Shown in pieces: positions 19,955 to 28,912 of a DNA stretch of 32,635 nucleotides. Within the stretch, counting starts at the first letter, position 1. Each line of letters starts with the position of its first letter. This DNA is from a virus. The notes under the pieces were generated by a model that saw only the letters and a list, made by a program, of their open reading frames with translations, was not told the DNA's origin and searched no databases. The stretch lies in IMG/VR virus record IMGVR_UViG_3300033273_000172, positions 1-32,635 of that record; one strand, written 5' to 3'. The position numbers were made by a program, and so were the translations under genes.

Positions 19955-21498
19955 TGGGTCTGCGCACGCGACTGTTTCGGGCTTTGGGGTATCAGCCCAT
20001 TCGGCAACGTCGGCCGCGGCGTATGTATGAAGGCGCGACTGTTAGCCGCCTGACTACTGACTGGGTGGCTGGTGGCACTAGCGCCGATGCCGAGATCAAC
20101 GGCAGCCTGAGCCGCCTGCGCAACCGCGCGCGGCAGCTGGTTCGTGATTCGGACTATGCGCGACAGGCCAAGCGTGCTGTGGTGTCAAACGTCATTGGCA
20201 CGGGCATCAGGATGCAGGCCCAGGTGCCGATGCAACGCGGCGGCCGCTTGGATGATCAGATCAACGGCGCCATTGAGATGGCGTGGAAGCGTTGGGGATA
20301 CAAAGAGCATTGCGACGTTGCGGGCCGGCTGTGCTTTGCCGAGATCGAGCGCATGGCGATTGGCGCGATGTGCGAAAGCGGCGAGGTATTTATTCGGATG
20401 ATCCGGCAGCCATTTGGCGGCGGGCAGGTGCCGTTTGCGCTGCAGATCATTGAGTCTGACCAGCTGGACGAGACCTACAACGGCGTTAGCACCATCTCGG
20501 GCAATGAATGGCGCATGGGCGTTGAGGTCGATAAGTGGGGCCGGCCTGTGCAGTACGCATTCTTGGCTAAGCATCCTGGCGACGGTCCGTTTTCCGGTTC
20601 ACCGGGCAAGCGTCACCTGATGCTGCCTGCTTCTGAGGTGATCCACCTTGCGATTTTGGAGCGGCCGGGCCAGACCCGCGGCGTGACGTGGTTTGCGTCT
20701 GCGATCAAGCGGATGCATCACCTTTCGGGCTATGAGGAGGCCGAGGTGGTGCGCGCACGGGCCAGCAGCGCGCTGATGGGTTTCATTACGTCGCCTGAGG
20801 GTGAGCTTGATCCCGGCGGCGAGGTTTATGACGGCGAGCGGGTTTCGTCGTTTGAGCCTGGGGTCTTTAAGTATTTGCAGCCGGGCGAATCAATTTCGGT
20901 GCCCAGCTTGGATGCACCCGATGGGCAGTTTGAGCCGTTCCTGCGGGCAATGCTTCGCGCTGTAGCTGCTGGCATCGGCTGCAGCTATGAGTCGGTCAGC
21001 CGTGATTTCAGCCAGACCAACTACAGCAGCAGCCGGCTGGCGTTGCTTGAGGAACGCGAGCACTGGAAAACGCTGCAGGACTATATGGTCAAGAATTTTC
21101 ACCAGCCGGTGTATGCGGCATGGCTGGAAATGGCTGTGATGAGCGGCGCGCTGAATCTGCCTTTGTATGAGGTGGAGCCTGAGCGGTTTAAGCGCGTGAA
21201 GTGGGTGCCCCGCGCATGGGGCTGGGTTGATCCCCAGAAGGAAGTTGCCGCATACAAAGAGGCAATCCGCTGTGGCTTTAAGACTCTTGCGCAGGTTGTC
21301 GGTGAGCAAGGCGGCGACTTGGATGAGTATTTGGTCGCGCGCAAAGCTGAGCTTAAAAAACTGGAAGAGCTGGGCATTGCGGTTGATACCGACCCCAATG
21401 TGATGACAGCCGCCGGAAGCCTGCAACCTGCTGCGGCGGAATCGGTTGATCTCCCTAGCCCAAATGTAGAGACGGGTTTTGAAGATGAGAACGGATAA
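19954..21498 (+). CDS. Portal protein, lambda gpB family
   Basis: 514 residues; ATG 19954 overlaps the previous stop (TGATG). Conserved segments include LRNRARQLVRDSDYARQAKR near residue 50, VVSNVIGTGIRMQ, GEVFIRMI, LQIIESDQLDETYNG, VIHLAILERPGQTRGVTWF and YESVSRDFSQTNYSSSRLAL. Twelve copies form the ring through which DNA enters the capsid. The short proline-rich C-terminus overlaps the next gene. No internal protease domain is present, unlike lambda where gpC follows separately. Confidence 0.93.
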   Translation: MGLRTRLFRALGYQPIRQRRPRRMYEGATVSRLTTDWVAGGTSADAEINGSLSRLRNRARQLVRDSDYARQAKRAVVSNVIGTGIRMQAQVPMQRGGRLDDQINGAIEMAWKRWGYKEHCDVAGRLCFAEIERMAIGAMCESGEVFIRMIRQPFGGGQVPFALQIIESDQLDETYNGVSTISGNEWRMGVEVDKWGRPVQYAFLAKHPGDGPFSGSPGKRHLMLPASEVIHLAILERPGQTRGVTWFASAIKRMHHLSGYEEAEVVRARASSALMGFITSPEGELDPGGEVYDGERVSSFEPGVFKYLQPGESISVPSLDAPDGQFEPFLRAMLRAVAAGIGCSYESVSRDFSQTNYSSSRLALLEEREHWKTLQDYMVKNFHQPVYAAWLEMAVMSGALNLPLYEVEPERFKRVKWVPRAWGWVDPQKEVAAYKEAIRCGFKTLAQVVGEQGGDLDEYLVARKAELKKLEELGIAVDTDPNVMTAAGSLQPAAAESVDLPSPNVETGFEDENG

Positions 21499-23464
21499 GA
21501 TTAAAGGAAAAGCTGAAGCGCCAATGGAAACAGCAGAGCTTGACGTAGAACAGCGAACTGGCGCCGAAGCTGTCGAAGCTGACACGGCGGAAGAGTTAAA
21601 CGTGCGCGATCTGGAAGGCAAATACCAGCGCGCAGAGCTGACCACTTTCGACGAGGTGGAAGAGCGGACCTATGAATTTCCGTTCAGCTCTGAGTATCCG
21701 GTGGCCCGGTATTTCGGAAACGAAATTCTGAGCCACGACGAGAAAGCGGCTGACCTTGCCCGGTTGAATGACGCGGCTCCGCTGCTTTTCAACCACAACC
21801 CCGACCGCGTGATCGGGGTTGTTGAGCGTGCATACATCGACGACCAAAAGCGTCGTGGCTATGTGCGTGTGCGGTTCAGCCGCAACCCATTCGCTCAGGA
21901 AGTCTTGGGCGATGTGAAAGACGGCGTTCTTAGGAACGTCTCTTTCGGCTACTCCATCGACAAGATGGAAGAGCGTGGCGGTGGCGATTTTGTCGCTACT
22001 GCTTGGACCCCTTACGAGGTGTCCGTGGTTTCTGTGCCGGCTGATCCCTCCGTTGGGGTTGGCCGTTCACTAGAGACCGACTCCAACGCTGCTCCGGCAG
22101 CACCTCAACCCGATCCCATTCCTGAAATGGAAAACCACACCCCTGATCTGGCAGTGGTGCGGGCCGAAGCCGCTGAGGCTGAGCGTTCCCGTATTGCTGG
22201 CATCTCTGCCCTGTGCGATAAGCACAACCTGGGCGAGCTTGGCCGTCAACTGATTGAGTCCGGCCGTTCCATCGACGAGGCCCGCGCAGCTGTTCTCGAC
22301 CAGCTCGGCGCTAAGCCCATTGAAGCCGTTAAGCCGGTTGAGATGGATCAGCGCGACGCTGCTGAGTACAGCATCTCCGCTGGTATCCGCGCTGCACTGA
22401 GCGGCGACTGGTCTGCCCGTGAGGCTGGCCTGGTCCGCGAGATGAGCCAAGAAGTCCAGCGCGCCTCTGGTTTCAGCCAGACCGGCAAGCGCGGTTTCTT
22501 TGTTCCTTTCTCGGCTCTCGCCAAGCGCGCCACCTACGTCACCTCTGGCGCCACCACCGGCGGCAACCTGGTTGCCACCGACCTGATGGCCGACGAGTTC
22601 ATCGAAGCATTGCGGAACAACTCCGTAATGCTGAACCTCGGCGTTCGCACCATGACCGGCCTGGTCGGTGATGTGGCGATCCCCCGCCGCTCCGGTGTTG
22701 CCTCGACGTTCTATCTGAGCACCGAGACCACCGCTATCACCCAAGCTGAGTCCACCTTTGACCAGGTGACCCTCAGCCCCAAGAACCTGGCTGCCCTGTC
22801 CAAATACAGCCGCCAGACCCTGCTTCAAGCCACCCCTGGCATTGAAGACCTGATCCGCCGCGACCTGACCGACGGCATCAACCTGGGCATTGATCTGGGC
22901 ATCCTGAACGGCTCCGGTTCTTCCGGTCAGCCCACCGGCATCCTGAACACCTCCGGCATCGGCTCGGTGGCAATGGGAACCAACGGTGGCGCCATCACCG
23001 TTGATGCGCTGGTGGATCTTGAGGAGCAGGTTCTGATCGATAACGGCGCGGTCAACCGCGACGCCATCGGTTATGTGACCAACGCCAAGGTGCTTGCAGA
23101 GCTGAAGAAGCTCCGCGCTGGTGGTTCCACCACCACCGACGGCGCCTACCTGGTGAACGATCAGTTGAATGCCATTGGCCGCGGCGGCACTCCTGCCTCG
23201 GTGAACGGCTACCCGCTGTATGTCACCAACCAGGTTCCCAGCAACCTGACCAAGGGCACCAGCAGCGGCGTTTGCTCCGCAATGCTGATGGGTGATTTCA
23301 GCCAGGCAATGGTTGGCTTCTACGGCAACGGTATCGAGATCACCGTTGGCGAAGATTCCGACGACTTCAGCAAGGCTCTGACCAGCGTCCGCGCAATCGT
23401 CTCTTATGACGTTGCCGTTCGCCACGCCGAGAGCTTCGCTGCAATCCTTGACATCACCACCTGA
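21485..23464 (+). CDS. Fused prohead protease and major capsid protein (HK97-like)
   Basis: 659 residues from ATG 21485 (an in-frame TTG at 21479 is less likely). Residues about 40-190 match the S78 prohead protease: LLFNHNPDRVIG with H104 and RNVSFGYSI with S153. Residues about 215-270 form a helical, scaffold-like delta region. From about 290 the sequence is an HK97-type major capsid (FSALAKRATYVTSGATTGG; DLMADEFIEALRN; QPTGILN; SVRAIVSYDVAVRHAESF). The fusion would release the shell domain by cleavage during maturation. The codon pattern changes to C-ending codons, as in highly expressed genes. A strong terminator follows. Confidence 0.93.
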   Translation: MRTDKIKGKAEAPMETAELDVEQRTGAEAVEADTAEELNVRDLEGKYQRAELTTFDEVEERTYEFPFSSEYPVARYFGNEILSHDEKAADLARLNDAAPLLFNHNPDRVIGVVERAYIDDQKRRGYVRVRFSRNPFAQEVLGDVKDGVLRNVSFGYSIDKMEERGGGDFVATAWTPYEVSVVSVPADPSVGVGRSLETDSNAAPAAPQPDPIPEMENHTPDLAVVRAEAAEAERSRIAGISALCDKHNLGELGRQLIESGRSIDEARAAVLDQLGAKPIEAVKPVEMDQRDAAEYSISAGIRAALSGDWSAREAGLVREMSQEVQRASGFSQTGKRGFFVPFSALAKRATYVTSGATTGGNLVATDLMADEFIEALRNNSVMLNLGVRTMTGLVGDVAIPRRSGVASTFYLSTETTAITQAESTFDQVTLSPKNLAALSKYSRQTLLQATPGIEDLIRRDLTDGINLGIDLGILNGSGSSGQPTGILNTSGIGSVAMGTNGGAITVDALVDLEEQVLIDNGAVNRDAIGYVTNAKVLAELKKLRAGGSTTTDGAYLVNDQLNAIGRGGTPASVNGYPLYVTNQVPSNLTKGTSSGVCSAMLMGDFSQAMVGFYGNGIEITVGEDSDDFSKALTSVRAIVSYDVAVRHAESFAAILDITT

Positions 23465-25158: not shown

Positions 25159-25341
25159 ATGATTGATGAAAACCAAGGTTTGGGAGGGAGTTACCTCCTA
25201 GATCCAAAAACCGGCAAGCGAAAGCTCGTCGAGCGGACACAGCCGGCCCCTCAACCCCAACCAGAGGTAGCCACCGATGGCATCAGTATTGACCCGCCGG
25301 CGCCTGATCTTGGCGAAGCTGGAGACGACGTACGGCACTGA
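25159..25341 (+). CDS. Small protein overlapping the tail tube gene (60 aa)
   Basis: ATG 25159 gives 60 residues: LGGSYLLDPKTGKRKLVERTQ then a Pro-rich tail. I recall short proteins with this GGSYxxDPKTG motif in cyanophages before the major tail protein. The last 65 bases overlap the tail tube gene in another frame. Probably disordered; function unknown. Confidence 0.55.
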   Translation: MIDENQGLGGSYLLDPKTGKRKLVERTQPAPQPQPEVATDGISIDPPAPDLGEAGDDVRH

Positions 25342-26215
25342 CAGCTCGCCGACTGGCGCCAGTAACGCAATTCTGGTGCGCAATCTCGACATTCAGCCGC
25401 TGGTCGCCGACACGGTGAACCGCGACCTGGTGCGCCCCTATATGGGCCAAGCCGATCAGCTGTTGGCCCAGACCCGCGTCGAGGTTTCGTTTGAGGTTGA
25501 GCTTGCAGGTTCTGGCACTGCCGGCACTGCCCCCGCTTATGGCCCGCTGCTCCGCAGCTGCGGTCTTAGCGAGACCGTGGTGGCCAGCACCAGCGTGACT
25601 TACGCGCCGATTTCGAGCAGCTTTGAAAGCAGCACGATCCACTATCACCAAGACGGCATCCGCCACACCCTGACGGGTTGCCGCGGCACGTTCGAGCTGT
25701 CCGGTGAGGTTGGCGGTATCCCGGTGATTTCTTTCACCATGACGGGCATCTATTCGGCTCCGACCGATCAGACCCTGCCCACTCCGACCTATGCCAACCA
25801 GGCGACCCCGCTGATCTTCAAGCAGGGCAATACCAGCAGCTTCTCAGCCTTCGGGTTTAGCGGCGTGATGCAGTCCTATAGCTTCAACGTCGCTAACGAC
25901 GTGATCTATCGGGAACTGGTGGGCGGCTCTAAAGAGATCCTGATCACCAACCGCGCCCCTAGCGGCAACGTTGTGATCGAAGCGCCGACCATTGCTGGCA
26001 AGGACTTCTTTACTGTTGCCACTGGCACCAGCACTGGGTCCATCACTTGGCAGCACGGCAGCACTGGCGGCAATATCGTCACGATGACCACCGCGCAGAG
26101 CGACTTGGGGAATCTGACCTATAGCGACAGCGACGGGATCCAGATGCTCAACATGCCGTTTATTGCGGTTCCGACCAGCGCGGGGAATAATGAACTGTCA
26201 CTGGCATACACCTAG
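25277..26215 (+). CDS. Major tail (tube) protein
   Basis: 312 residues from ATG 25277. The sequence begins with a basic RRRLILAKLETTYGTDSSP segment and LVRNLDIQPLVADTVNRDLVRPYMG, a pattern of phage tail tube proteins, followed by a series of beta strands (VEVSFEVELAGSG; GTFELSGEVGGIPVISFTMTG). The C-terminal part is Gly/Thr-rich. Many copies polymerise around the tape measure to form the tail tube. It is followed by the G/GT chaperone genes and the tape measure, the universal order in long-tailed phages. Confidence 0.88.
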   Translation: MASVLTRRRLILAKLETTYGTDSSPTGASNAILVRNLDIQPLVADTVNRDLVRPYMGQADQLLAQTRVEVSFEVELAGSGTAGTAPAYGPLLRSCGLSETVVASTSVTYAPISSSFESSTIHYHQDGIRHTLTGCRGTFELSGEVGGIPVISFTMTGIYSAPTDQTLPTPTYANQATPLIFKQGNTSSFSAFGFSGVMQSYSFNVANDVIYRELVGGSKEILITNRAPSGNVVIEAPTIAGKDFFTVATGTSTGSITWQHGSTGGNIVTMTTAQSDLGNLTYSDSDGIQMLNMPFIAVPTSAGNNELSLAYT

Positions 26216-26218
26216 ACC

Positions 26219-26563
26219 TTGGCGTTTGTTCTAAAGCAGTCAGACACTTACACCTGGCCGGTCACTTTCGACGTTCCTGTCGATGGTGGCCGGCATCAAC
26301 GTCAGAGCTTTGATGGCGAGTTTCGGCGCGTCAGCCAATCTCGCATCCGCGAGATGGGGCAACTGATCGAGTCTGGTGATCTGACCGATTCCGAGATTGC
26401 CAGCGAGGTGCTGGTGGGTTGGGCCGGCATTAACGACGACGATGGCAAAGAGGTGCCCTTTAGCCAAGGCGCCCTTGAGCGGTTGCTTGACGTGCCAATG
26501 CTGGCCACTGCTATCGCTACGGCGTATTTCAGCAGCCTCAGCGGAGTTAAGCGAAAAAACTGA
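26219..26563 (+). CDS. Tail assembly chaperone (G), frameshift upstream product
   Basis: 114 residues from TTG 26219; no ATG or GTG is suitably placed. The protein reads VTFDVPVDGGRHQRQSFDGEFRR, then REMGQLIESGD and ASEVLVGWAGI, the pattern of lambda gpG-like tail chaperones. It ends with VKRKN and TGA at a slippery heptamer. Most ribosomes should stop here, while a fraction shifts to make the longer GT product. The chaperone coats the tape measure before tube assembly. Confidence 0.83.
   Translation: MAFVLKQSDTYTWPVTFDVPVDGGRHQRQSFDGEFRRVSQSRIREMGQLIESGDLTDSEIASEVLVGWAGINDDDGKEVPFSQGALERLLDVPMLATAIATAYFSSLSGVKRKN
26554..26560 (+). other. -1 ribosomal frameshift heptamer A-AAA-AAC (G/GT)
   Basis: The 0-frame reads CGA AAA AAC TGA, placing A AAA AAC precisely in register one codon before the stop. 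A -1 slip leads to CTG ATC GAG and an open frame to 26883. This is one of the best slippery heptamers, at the place where long-tailed phages keep a conserved frameshift. Confidence 0.88.
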
Positions 26564-26883
26564 TCGAGGCCGCTGAGCATTGGGCGAGCGGTGGCGTCAA
26601 AGACGAAACCGACGCCGATGCCGCGGCCTTAGGCGTTGCTCTGCCTGAACCTGAGCCTGAGAAGCCGTTTGAGGTGCTTGAGGAAAACTGGGAGTCGGTG
26701 CAAATGTTCCTCCGATCTCAGACCCAGTGGCGCACAACGATGAACGGCATTCTGGGCTTGGACTATGGCGCGCTTGCGTGGCTATTTAGACTGTATGAAG
26801 TAACCGACCAGTGCGCCGTGCTGGAAGATCTGCAGGTGATGGAGAGCGCGGCAATGCTGGTCATGAATGAGCGAGGCGCCTGA
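26560..26883 (+). CDS. Tail chaperone T part, made as G-T fusion by -1 frameshift
   Basis: After the slip the frame encodes 107 residues. The first 40 are acidic and Glu/Asp/Pro-rich (DETDADAAALG; PEPEPEKPFEVLEEN); the rest has W-rich helices (QTQWRTTMNGILGLDYGALAWLF; LEDLQVMESAAMLV), as in lambda-like T domains that bind the tail tube protein. An internal GTG at 26674 could give only the last 69 residues and lacks a good ribosome binding site. The fusion is expected as a minor product. The TGA lies one base before the tape measure ATG. Confidence 0.83.
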   Translation: MIEAAEHWASGGVKDETDADAAALGVALPEPEPEKPFEVLEENWESVQMFLRSQTQWRTTMNGILGLDYGALAWLFRLYEVTDQCAVLEDLQVMESAAMLVMNERGA

Positions 26884-26884
26884 A

Positions 26885-28912
26885 ATGGCAATGAATATTG
26901 ACTCGCTGATTCGGATCAAGGCCGACGTTAAAGGCGAAAACGATATCAAGCGCCTCGGCAATTCCATGCAGGGAGTGCAGGGCAAGGTCAAGAATCTCAA
27001 GATGGCCGTTGGCGGCCTCAGCACTGCTTTTAAAGCACTTGGCGCAGCCCTAGCCATTGGAGCATTTGCTAAGAGCGCCCAAGATGCTTTGCAGCTGGCA
27101 GATGCTGTTGGCAAGCTGAGCACGCGAACAGGTATTGCGGCAAATACTTTGTTTGCCTATAGAAATGCCGCTGAGTTGGCGGACGTTAGCAATGAGCAGC
27201 TAAATACTGGCCTTCTGCAGCTCAGCAAAAATATGCTTGAGGCAGCAAAAGGCACTGAGACTTATGCCTCAGCATTTCGCGCTTTAGGTGTTGCAATCAC
27301 TGATGAAAGCGGCCAGCTGCGCAGTGCAGATGCTGTCTTTGAAGATATCGCCGATCGTTTTGCGCAACTGCCTGATGGAGCTACAAAGGCAGCTGTTGCT
27401 ATGCGGCTGTTTGGCCGTTCGGGCGCACAACTGATCCCGCTGCTTAATGGCGGGTCCGATGCATTGACCAAGCTGGGCTTTGGCCTCAGTGCTGAGTTCA
27501 CTGAAAAGGCGCAACTCTTTAACGACACCATGGCCGGCATCGGTCGCCGGTTTAGAGAGATCCAGCTGCAGATTCTGGATTATTTCCTGCCGACGTTCCA
27601 AATGATCGGCGATGCATTCGCTGATTTATTTCAAGGCAGCAGCGGCGATTGGAAGGCATTTGGCGCATTGATTGCTAGCGTTTTGCGTGGCGTTGGCGCC
27701 GCTGTTTATGCAACGATCGCCGGCATTAGATTTTTGAGCCGGGTCATTGGCGATCTAGTCGCCATTGCTGATGCAGCATTAAAGCGTGATTTCGCCAAGG
27801 TCGGCCAGATTGCAACCAGAGGCTTAAAAGAAACTGGCGCACAGTTCCAAACTGACAGGCGCAACCTTTCGCAGTTGCTTGGCGGCGGTTTGGCAAATCA
27901 GCGGCCAGACCGCACGGGTTACTCGCGCCGTTTGATGGGCGGTGCGTTTGACGTTGAAAACCTCTTAGGCGGCGGCGCAGCTGCAAGCGAGAAAGCAGCA
28001 AAAGACAAAGCAGCTGCAGATAAGAAGGCAGCGGAAGAGGCCGCCAAGCTGGCTGAGGCGCAACAGAAAGGCTACCTAGCTTCTTTGCTGCAGCTTGATG
28101 CCTCAAAAGCTGCCTTGGCTATTGCGCGCGAATCCGACCCGCTGAAACGGATTGAGCTTGAGTACGAAGAACGCCGGCGCGTGCTGATGACAGAGTTTGC
28201 CGAATCAGCTCAGGCATCTTTAACCACCGCTCAAGATATGAACATTGAGCGCAAGCTGGCGATTGATTTAGACACCTTGGCCGCTGAAAAACAGAAGGCA
28301 CTAGAAGAAGCCACCAAGTCATCAGGCAAAACCTTCAAAGAAGCCTTTGGCGACAAAATGGAGGAATACAAAAAGACCCTCGCTGATTTTGGCGGTCAAG
28401 CTGCTGATGCAGTGATTGGCGCATTCCAAGGCATGGAGGATGCGCTGACCACGTTCGTCACAACAGGCAAGGCGAATTTCCGCGACCTTGCCAACAGCAT
28501 TATTGCCGATATCACCCGGATCGCTATCCGGCAGGCAATTATCAAGCCGTTGGTTGGGGCATTGTTCCCTGATGTGAAAAGCGCAAACGGCAACGTTTTC
28601 GCATCCAACGGCATCGTGCCATTCGCCAAGGGCGGCATTGTTGACCGGCCGATGGTATTTCCCTTCGCCAAGGGCATTGGCCTGATGGGCGAGGCCGGGC
28701 CTGAGGCGATCATGCCTTTACGCCGCGGCCCTGGTGGTCGGCTTGGGGTTGAAAGCAGCGGCGGCATGGGCAATATCGTGGTCAACGTTGATGCCACCGG
28801 CTCCCAAGCCCAAGGCAATACCAACCAAGGCAAACAGCTCGGCGAAGCTATTGGCGTTGCCATTCGTCAAGAGCTGATCCGACAAAAACGCCCAGGAGGC
28901 TTGCTCGCGTAA
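26885..28912 (+). CDS. Tail tape measure protein (lambda gpH-like)
   Basis: 675 residues from ATG 26885 (an ATG at 26867 lies inside the T frame). Order of parts: an N-terminal helical region with LIRIKADVKGENDIKRLGNS; a hydrophobic segment near residues 45-65; the GIAANTLFAYRNAAELADVS motif; helices to about 370; an Ala/Lys-rich coiled coil (SEKAAKDKAAADKKAAEEAA); and a C-terminal lambda-like tail domain (ANSIIADITRIAIRQAIIKPL, GEAGPEAIMPLRR). It sets tail length; at about 1.5 angstroms per residue this predicts a tail of about 100 nm. That number follows the known rule and is not measured. Confidence 0.92.
   Translation: MAMNIDSLIRIKADVKGENDIKRLGNSMQGVQGKVKNLKMAVGGLSTAFKALGAALAIGAFAKSAQDALQLADAVGKLSTRTGIAANTLFAYRNAAELADVSNEQLNTGLLQLSKNMLEAAKGTETYASAFRALGVAITDESGQLRSADAVFEDIADRFAQLPDGATKAAVAMRLFGRSGAQLIPLLNGGSDALTKLGFGLSAEFTEKAQLFNDTMAGIGRRFREIQLQILDYFLPTFQMIGDAFADLFQGSSGDWKAFGALIASVLRGVGAAVYATIAGIRFLSRVIGDLVAIADAALKRDFAKVGQIATRGLKETGAQFQTDRRNLSQLLGGGLANQRPDRTGYSRRLMGGAFDVENLLGGGAAASEKAAKDKAAADKKAAEEAAKLAEAQQKGYLASLLQLDASKAALAIARESDPLKRIELEYEERRRVLMTEFAESAQASLTTAQDMNIERKLAIDLDTLAAEKQKALEEATKSSGKTFKEAFGDKMEEYKKTLADFGGQAADAVIGAFQGMEDALTTFVTTGKANFRDLANSIIADITRIAIRQAIIKPLVGALFPDVKSANGNVFASNGIVPFAKGGIVDRPMVFPFAKGIGLMGEAGPEAIMPLRRGPGGRLGVESSGGMGNIVVNVDATGSQAQGNTNQGKQLGEAIGVAIRQELIRQKRPGGLLA

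Follow-up and report, generated by a model that had tools for sequence, protein, structure and literature searches.

Tail Chaperone Frameshifting in Described Phages

Frameshifting between genes G and T is long established in phage lambda, where it operates at a ratio of about 30:1 and where T binds the tail tube protein (PMC5009743). A_AAA_AAC, which has already been named for the haloarchaeal virus HCTV-2, slips far less readily in E. coli than does A_AAA_AAG (PMC5009743). For Acinetobacter phage Loki, a frameshift joining gp12 and gp13 has been proposed at an AAAAAAC that abuts the tail chaperone stop codon (PMC5313236). Because G-T frameshifting is established and a stop-abutting AAAAAAC has been proposed for Loki, the G/GT frameshift mechanism at the locus described here is not new. 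What our analysis seems to add is a family-wide tie between DUF1799 and a stop-abutting X XXA AAC heptamer, together with a selected hairpin in cyanophages; we found no paper stating either the tie or the selected hairpin in a literature search that lay outside most subscription journals.

The window, a 32,635-nt stretch of viral DNA (IMG/VR record IMGVR_UViG_3300033273_000172), encodes proteins homologous to gp49/gp50 (DUF1799) of the Mu-like Rhodobacter phage RcapMu, whose record notes a "potential -1 frameshift" in the same place, but at the heptamer G GGA AAC. Judged by the chaperone protein, the nearest isolates are S-CBS1, S-LBS1, and S-CBS3, all Synechococcus phages, so the host of the virus is likely to be a cyanobacterium. 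These three phages share with the window the heptamer, the abutting stop codon, the hairpin, and the open −1 frame, with 34–47% identity to the window in G, but each is deposited with two separate genes and no frameshift, and the papers on the closest cyanophages that the literature search covered mention none. If the frameshift reading is correct, what is a single frameshifted gene appears as two in the deposited cyanophage annotations, and the reading would explain what DUF1799 most likely is.

Anatomy of the Chaperone Locus

The G-like ORF of the window lies between genes for the tail tube and tape measure proteins, and the sequence contains the following features.

25277..26215, + strand: tail tube (major tail) protein gene, upstream neighbor (PF18906 Phage_tube_2, E 1e-20)
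26219..26563, + strand: G-type tail assembly chaperone ORF, 114 codons, TTG start, TGA stop
26554..26560, + strand: predicted slippery heptamer A AAA AAC, −1 frameshift site, in X XXY YYZ register with the ORF from TTG 26219
26561..26563, + strand: zero-frame stop TGA adjoining the heptamer
26560..26883, + strand: −1 frame extension (putative T role), 107 codons, DUF1799 (PF08809, E 1.4e-14; phrog_680, E 1.4e-28)
26885..28912, + strand: tape measure protein gene, downstream neighbor (PF09718 Tape_meas_lam_C, E 6e-25)

Read directly, the 3′ end of the 114-codon ORF is GTT AAG CGA AAA AAC TGA, which bears out the original prediction of an in-frame A AAA AAC near the end of this ORF and places the TGA directly after it. 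From the CTG at 26560, the −1 frame runs for 107 codons to the TGA at 26881-26883, one base (26884) before the tape measure ATG at 26885, and the 107 residues include 20 D/E, 6 K/R, and 4 Trp; an acidic, Trp-containing extension ending at this point had been predicted and is what the sequence encodes. The first start codon in the −1 frame of the window is GTG 26674. The stretch that gene callers would leave unannotated had been placed at 26560-26673; such a gap exists and does end at 26673, but it starts at 26564, because TGA 26561-26563 would be called as part of the first coding sequence. The tape measure reading frame has another ATG, at 26867, but most relatives keep the post-stop ATG (26885). 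Among relatives, the chaperone ORF starts with ATG in 97, TTG in 10, and GTG in 7.

The order tail tube, G, T, tape measure is that of lambda, and the portal, terminase, and tape measure proteins are lambda-type, the terminase and portal genes also being present in the window. A −1 slip near the end of G appends the T domain in lambda and would do so in the window. The heptamer is unlike that of lambda, as originally noted (A AAA AAC here, G GGA AAG in lambda); several codons separate heptamer and stop codon in lambda, whereas the stop abuts the heptamer in the window; and a predicted hairpin follows the site in the window, whereas lambda shows none in the same test. Loki also has AAAAAAC adjoining the tail chaperone stop, a likeness in site arrangement found in a different phage. 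Sequence similarity to lambda gpG and gpT was not detectable (hhalign probabilities of 0.2% and 0.3% against single lambda sequences), and "G" and "T" are therefore assigned here by role and position.

Family assignments and predicted folds are consistent with tail assembly proteins. The window G protein scores 20.2 bits against Phage_TAC_4 (PF08748), a marginal match just below the cut-off of 21.1, and 30/32 homologs match this family at E ≤ 0.1 (best 2.2e-07). Its predicted model has a mean pLDDT of 87, and the best BFVD matches of the fold include predicted phage proteins named "tape measure chaperone." The extension scores 54.5 bits against DUF1799 (PF08809), above the curated cut-off of 26, and its predicted model has a mean pLDDT of 85. 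Neither protein matched a solved structure by sequence or Foldseek. A weak match of the extension profile to ribosomal protein L20 (E 0.004) was set aside as chance. Gene position, Pfam families, fold, and the conserved heptamer and −1 frame together support the predicted G/GT tail-chaperone reading.

We therefore regard it as highly probable, judging from sequence and its conservation, that the locus specifies a short and a long chaperone through −1 slippage on A AAA AAC, with the hairpin probably acting as a stimulator. Most ribosomes starting at TTG 26219 would stop at TGA 26561 and release a 114-residue G-type chaperone. A minority would slip back one base on the heptamer, tRNA-Lys and tRNA-Asn re-pairing to AAA AAA, and would next read CTG and continue through the DUF1799 frame to give a fusion of ∼221 residues. 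By analogy with lambda, the tape measure protein would be coated by many copies of G and few of GT, whose DUF1799 part may recruit tail tube subunits.

Conservation of the Slip Site

AAAAAAC occurs four times in the window against 3.5 expected and is not rare; its mere presence was therefore not counted as evidence, and what exceeds chance is its conservation rather than its occurrence. The original prediction had named relatives lacking both the heptamer and the open −1 frame as evidence against it; the open frame is present in all relatives and the heptamer in nearly all. The 114-aa query identified 80 viral loci, every one with a long open −1 frame, cut off in one case by the contig end. 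An in-frame AAAAAAC occurs in 79 of them, and the exception (L081) has a run of eight A that places A AAA AAA in frame. In an overlapping set of 80 loci found with the extension as query, AAAAAAC is present in 79 and the remaining locus has AAAAAGC. The AAAAAGC of locus L121 (near 1995-2001), unique among the close relatives, may be a mutation, a sequencing error, or a lost site, and would slip poorly.

Codon usage at the site, counted in 91 distinct relatives, departs from that in the rest of the gene. The Lys codon of the heptamer is AAA in 89/89 relatives, whereas elsewhere in the gene AAG is preferred over AAA by 473 to 177 (AAA 27%). For the Arg codon just before it, 83/85 relatives use AGA or CGA, which together account for 6% of Arg codons elsewhere in the gene, and the Asn codon is AAC in 90/91. 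From the sequences compared, this bias is a mark of selection acting on the slip site at the nucleotide level.

The stop codon stands at the same place in 88/91 relatives, abutting the heptamer, as it does in most distant DUF1799 genes, and such constancy would be expected if the slip were coupled to termination, with the P-site tRNA-Asn alone slipping as the stop codon occupies the A site. The conserved A of the Arg codon and the Lys AAA serve tandem slippage and would be unneeded for an Asn-only slip, and in a few relatives at least one codon separates heptamer and stop; we judge termination-coupled slippage to be unlikely. On tandem slippage, the preferred reading, the abutting stop codon may still add a pause.

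Protein-Level Conservation Begins at the First Codon of the Extension

The −1 frame is open in all relatives and conserved as protein, and in the window it ends at the tape measure start. Variation is highest at the third codon positions of the −1 frame right from the start of the extension, and across 36 relatives, L1 and A4 of the extension are invariant and A5 is nearly so. The first 38 extension residues of the window precede any start codon and lie within the protein-conserved stretch. The pattern of substitution thus indicates that the extension is conserved as a real protein from its first codon, upstream of any start.

These data bear on whether the DUF1799 part could instead be a separate gene with its own start codon (GTG 26674 in the window), as it appears in the deposited annotations of S-CBS1, S-CBS3, S-LBS1, RcapMu, and others. 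Among relatives, the first start codon of the −1 frame ranges from codon 8 to codon 51, and a separately initiated gene offers no explanation, because conservation begins before these variable start codons. Nor would such a gene give any reason to keep rare codons at the heptamer. Separate initiation is thus very improbable, and frameshift expression of the extension is the reading retained below.

A Probably Selected Hairpin Downstream of the Heptamer

Folding of the stretch after the heptamer placed stems starting 5–8 nt 3′ of it in most relatives. Two predicted pairings occur in the window.

26569..26592, + strand: predicted hairpin, candidate frameshift stimulator, 8 nt past the heptamer (GCCGCT-ga-GC-ATTGG-GC-g-AGCGGT)
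26566..26630, + strand: alternative longer helix, predicted in the window and some relatives, in which 26566-26573 (GAGGCCGC) pairs with 26623-26630 (GCGGCCTT)

Stability was expressed as z against codon permutations that preserve the −1-frame protein and the codon pool of each gene. The 45-nt window at +5 nt has a mean z of −2.36 across relatives, and the remaining extension windows show no peak (mean z −0.6 to +0.6); in the upstream gene, under zero-frame permutation, z reaches −1.1 at most. For the sequence of the window alone, the effect is modest at 45 nt (z −1.3, with 9% of synonymous shuffles equally good) and z is −2.2 at 75 nt, a stretch that includes the competing helix 26566-26573/26623-26630. 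Covariation in the hairpin is weak, coming mainly from one base pair with a C-G/T-A exchange, since this stretch also encodes protein and varies little, and the structural claim therefore rests on the synonymous permutations.

Weak covariation is also what would be seen if the hairpin were a by-product of coding and base composition with no role in frameshifting. The lambda site, which gave z +1.5 in the same permutation test, shows no such structure, and several distant DUF1799 genes show none. Against this, stability exceeds that of amino-acid-preserving permutations in all 13 sequence clusters (defined at 65% protein identity; mean z below −1 at +5 nt in each), and only at this place. We consider a by-product the less probable interpretation, with a real but minor chance of being right. 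The permutation results indicate that in relatives, a hairpin 5–8 nt past the heptamer is selected beyond coding need, which makes it a good candidate for a frameshift stimulator. Positioned there, it would probably pause the ribosome and so raise or set the slip rate.

Two partners are available to the 5′ arm GAGGCCGC, one local and the other GCGGCCTT, ∼50 nt downstream; because each option recurs in some relatives, a switch between two stimulators using a shared 5′ arm is conceivable. A candidate pseudoknot between the hairpin loop and a downstream CCGAT, judged by eye, was dropped, as relatives do not keep the pairing. Rfam gave no match anywhere in the window.

Slip Heptamers across DUF1799 Genes

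The heptamer AAAAAAC or GGGAAAC stands directly before the stop codon in all seven other phages compared (RC1, CS01, phiAH14a, HK639, Henu7, PS-1, and YMC11/02/R656) and in 20 of 31 DUF1799 loci from bacterial genomes. Of the other 11 bacterial loci, four place one of these heptamers 1 to 16 codons ahead of the stop, five (from Halomonas and relatives) instead carry AAAAAAG at a distance of five or six codons, and in two, a slip heptamer was not found. A stop-abutting A AAA AAC or G GGA AAC is thus mostly typical of the DUF1799 genes of T1-like phages, HK639, Mu-like phages, and proteobacterial prophages.

This variety of sites is informative about the step at which the frames are joined. Runs of A can cause RNA polymerase slippage, and most relatives have six consecutive A, which would fit a joining of the frames during transcription. 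In RcapMu, RC1, PS-1, Photobacterium, and others, however, the A run gives way to G GGA AAC, a heptamer lacking any long homopolymer; the sites stay in X XXY YYZ register; and the conserved hairpin lies at a distance typical of ribosomal stimulators. Transcriptional slippage accordingly has very little probability, and ribosomal slippage remains the preferred reading.

A broader proposal, to which we give an even chance, is that DUF1799 chaperones have their own cassette, in which a stop-abutting X XXA AAC is combined, in cyanophages and relatives, with a 3′ hairpin that would set the G:GT ratio, DUF1799 always being a frameshift-encoded domain. The loci collected here form a large natural set of sites for testing how the hairpin and the abutting stop codon tune A AAA AAC slippage in cyanobacteria.

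PHROGs (phrog_569 and phrog_680 matches) and several RefSeq records call both chaperone halves "tail length tape measure protein." The deposited name of the S-LBS1 homolog of G (SLBS1_A18, L003 2001-2381), "ATPase component of the ABC-type cobalamin/Fe3+-siderophores transport system," is clearly wrong, and in the same phage, a reverse-strand ORF is annotated over the frameshift region. Elsewhere in the window, the first part of a 661-codon ORF (21479-23464) matches a head maturation protease and the remainder a major head protein, making it a fused protease and capsid.
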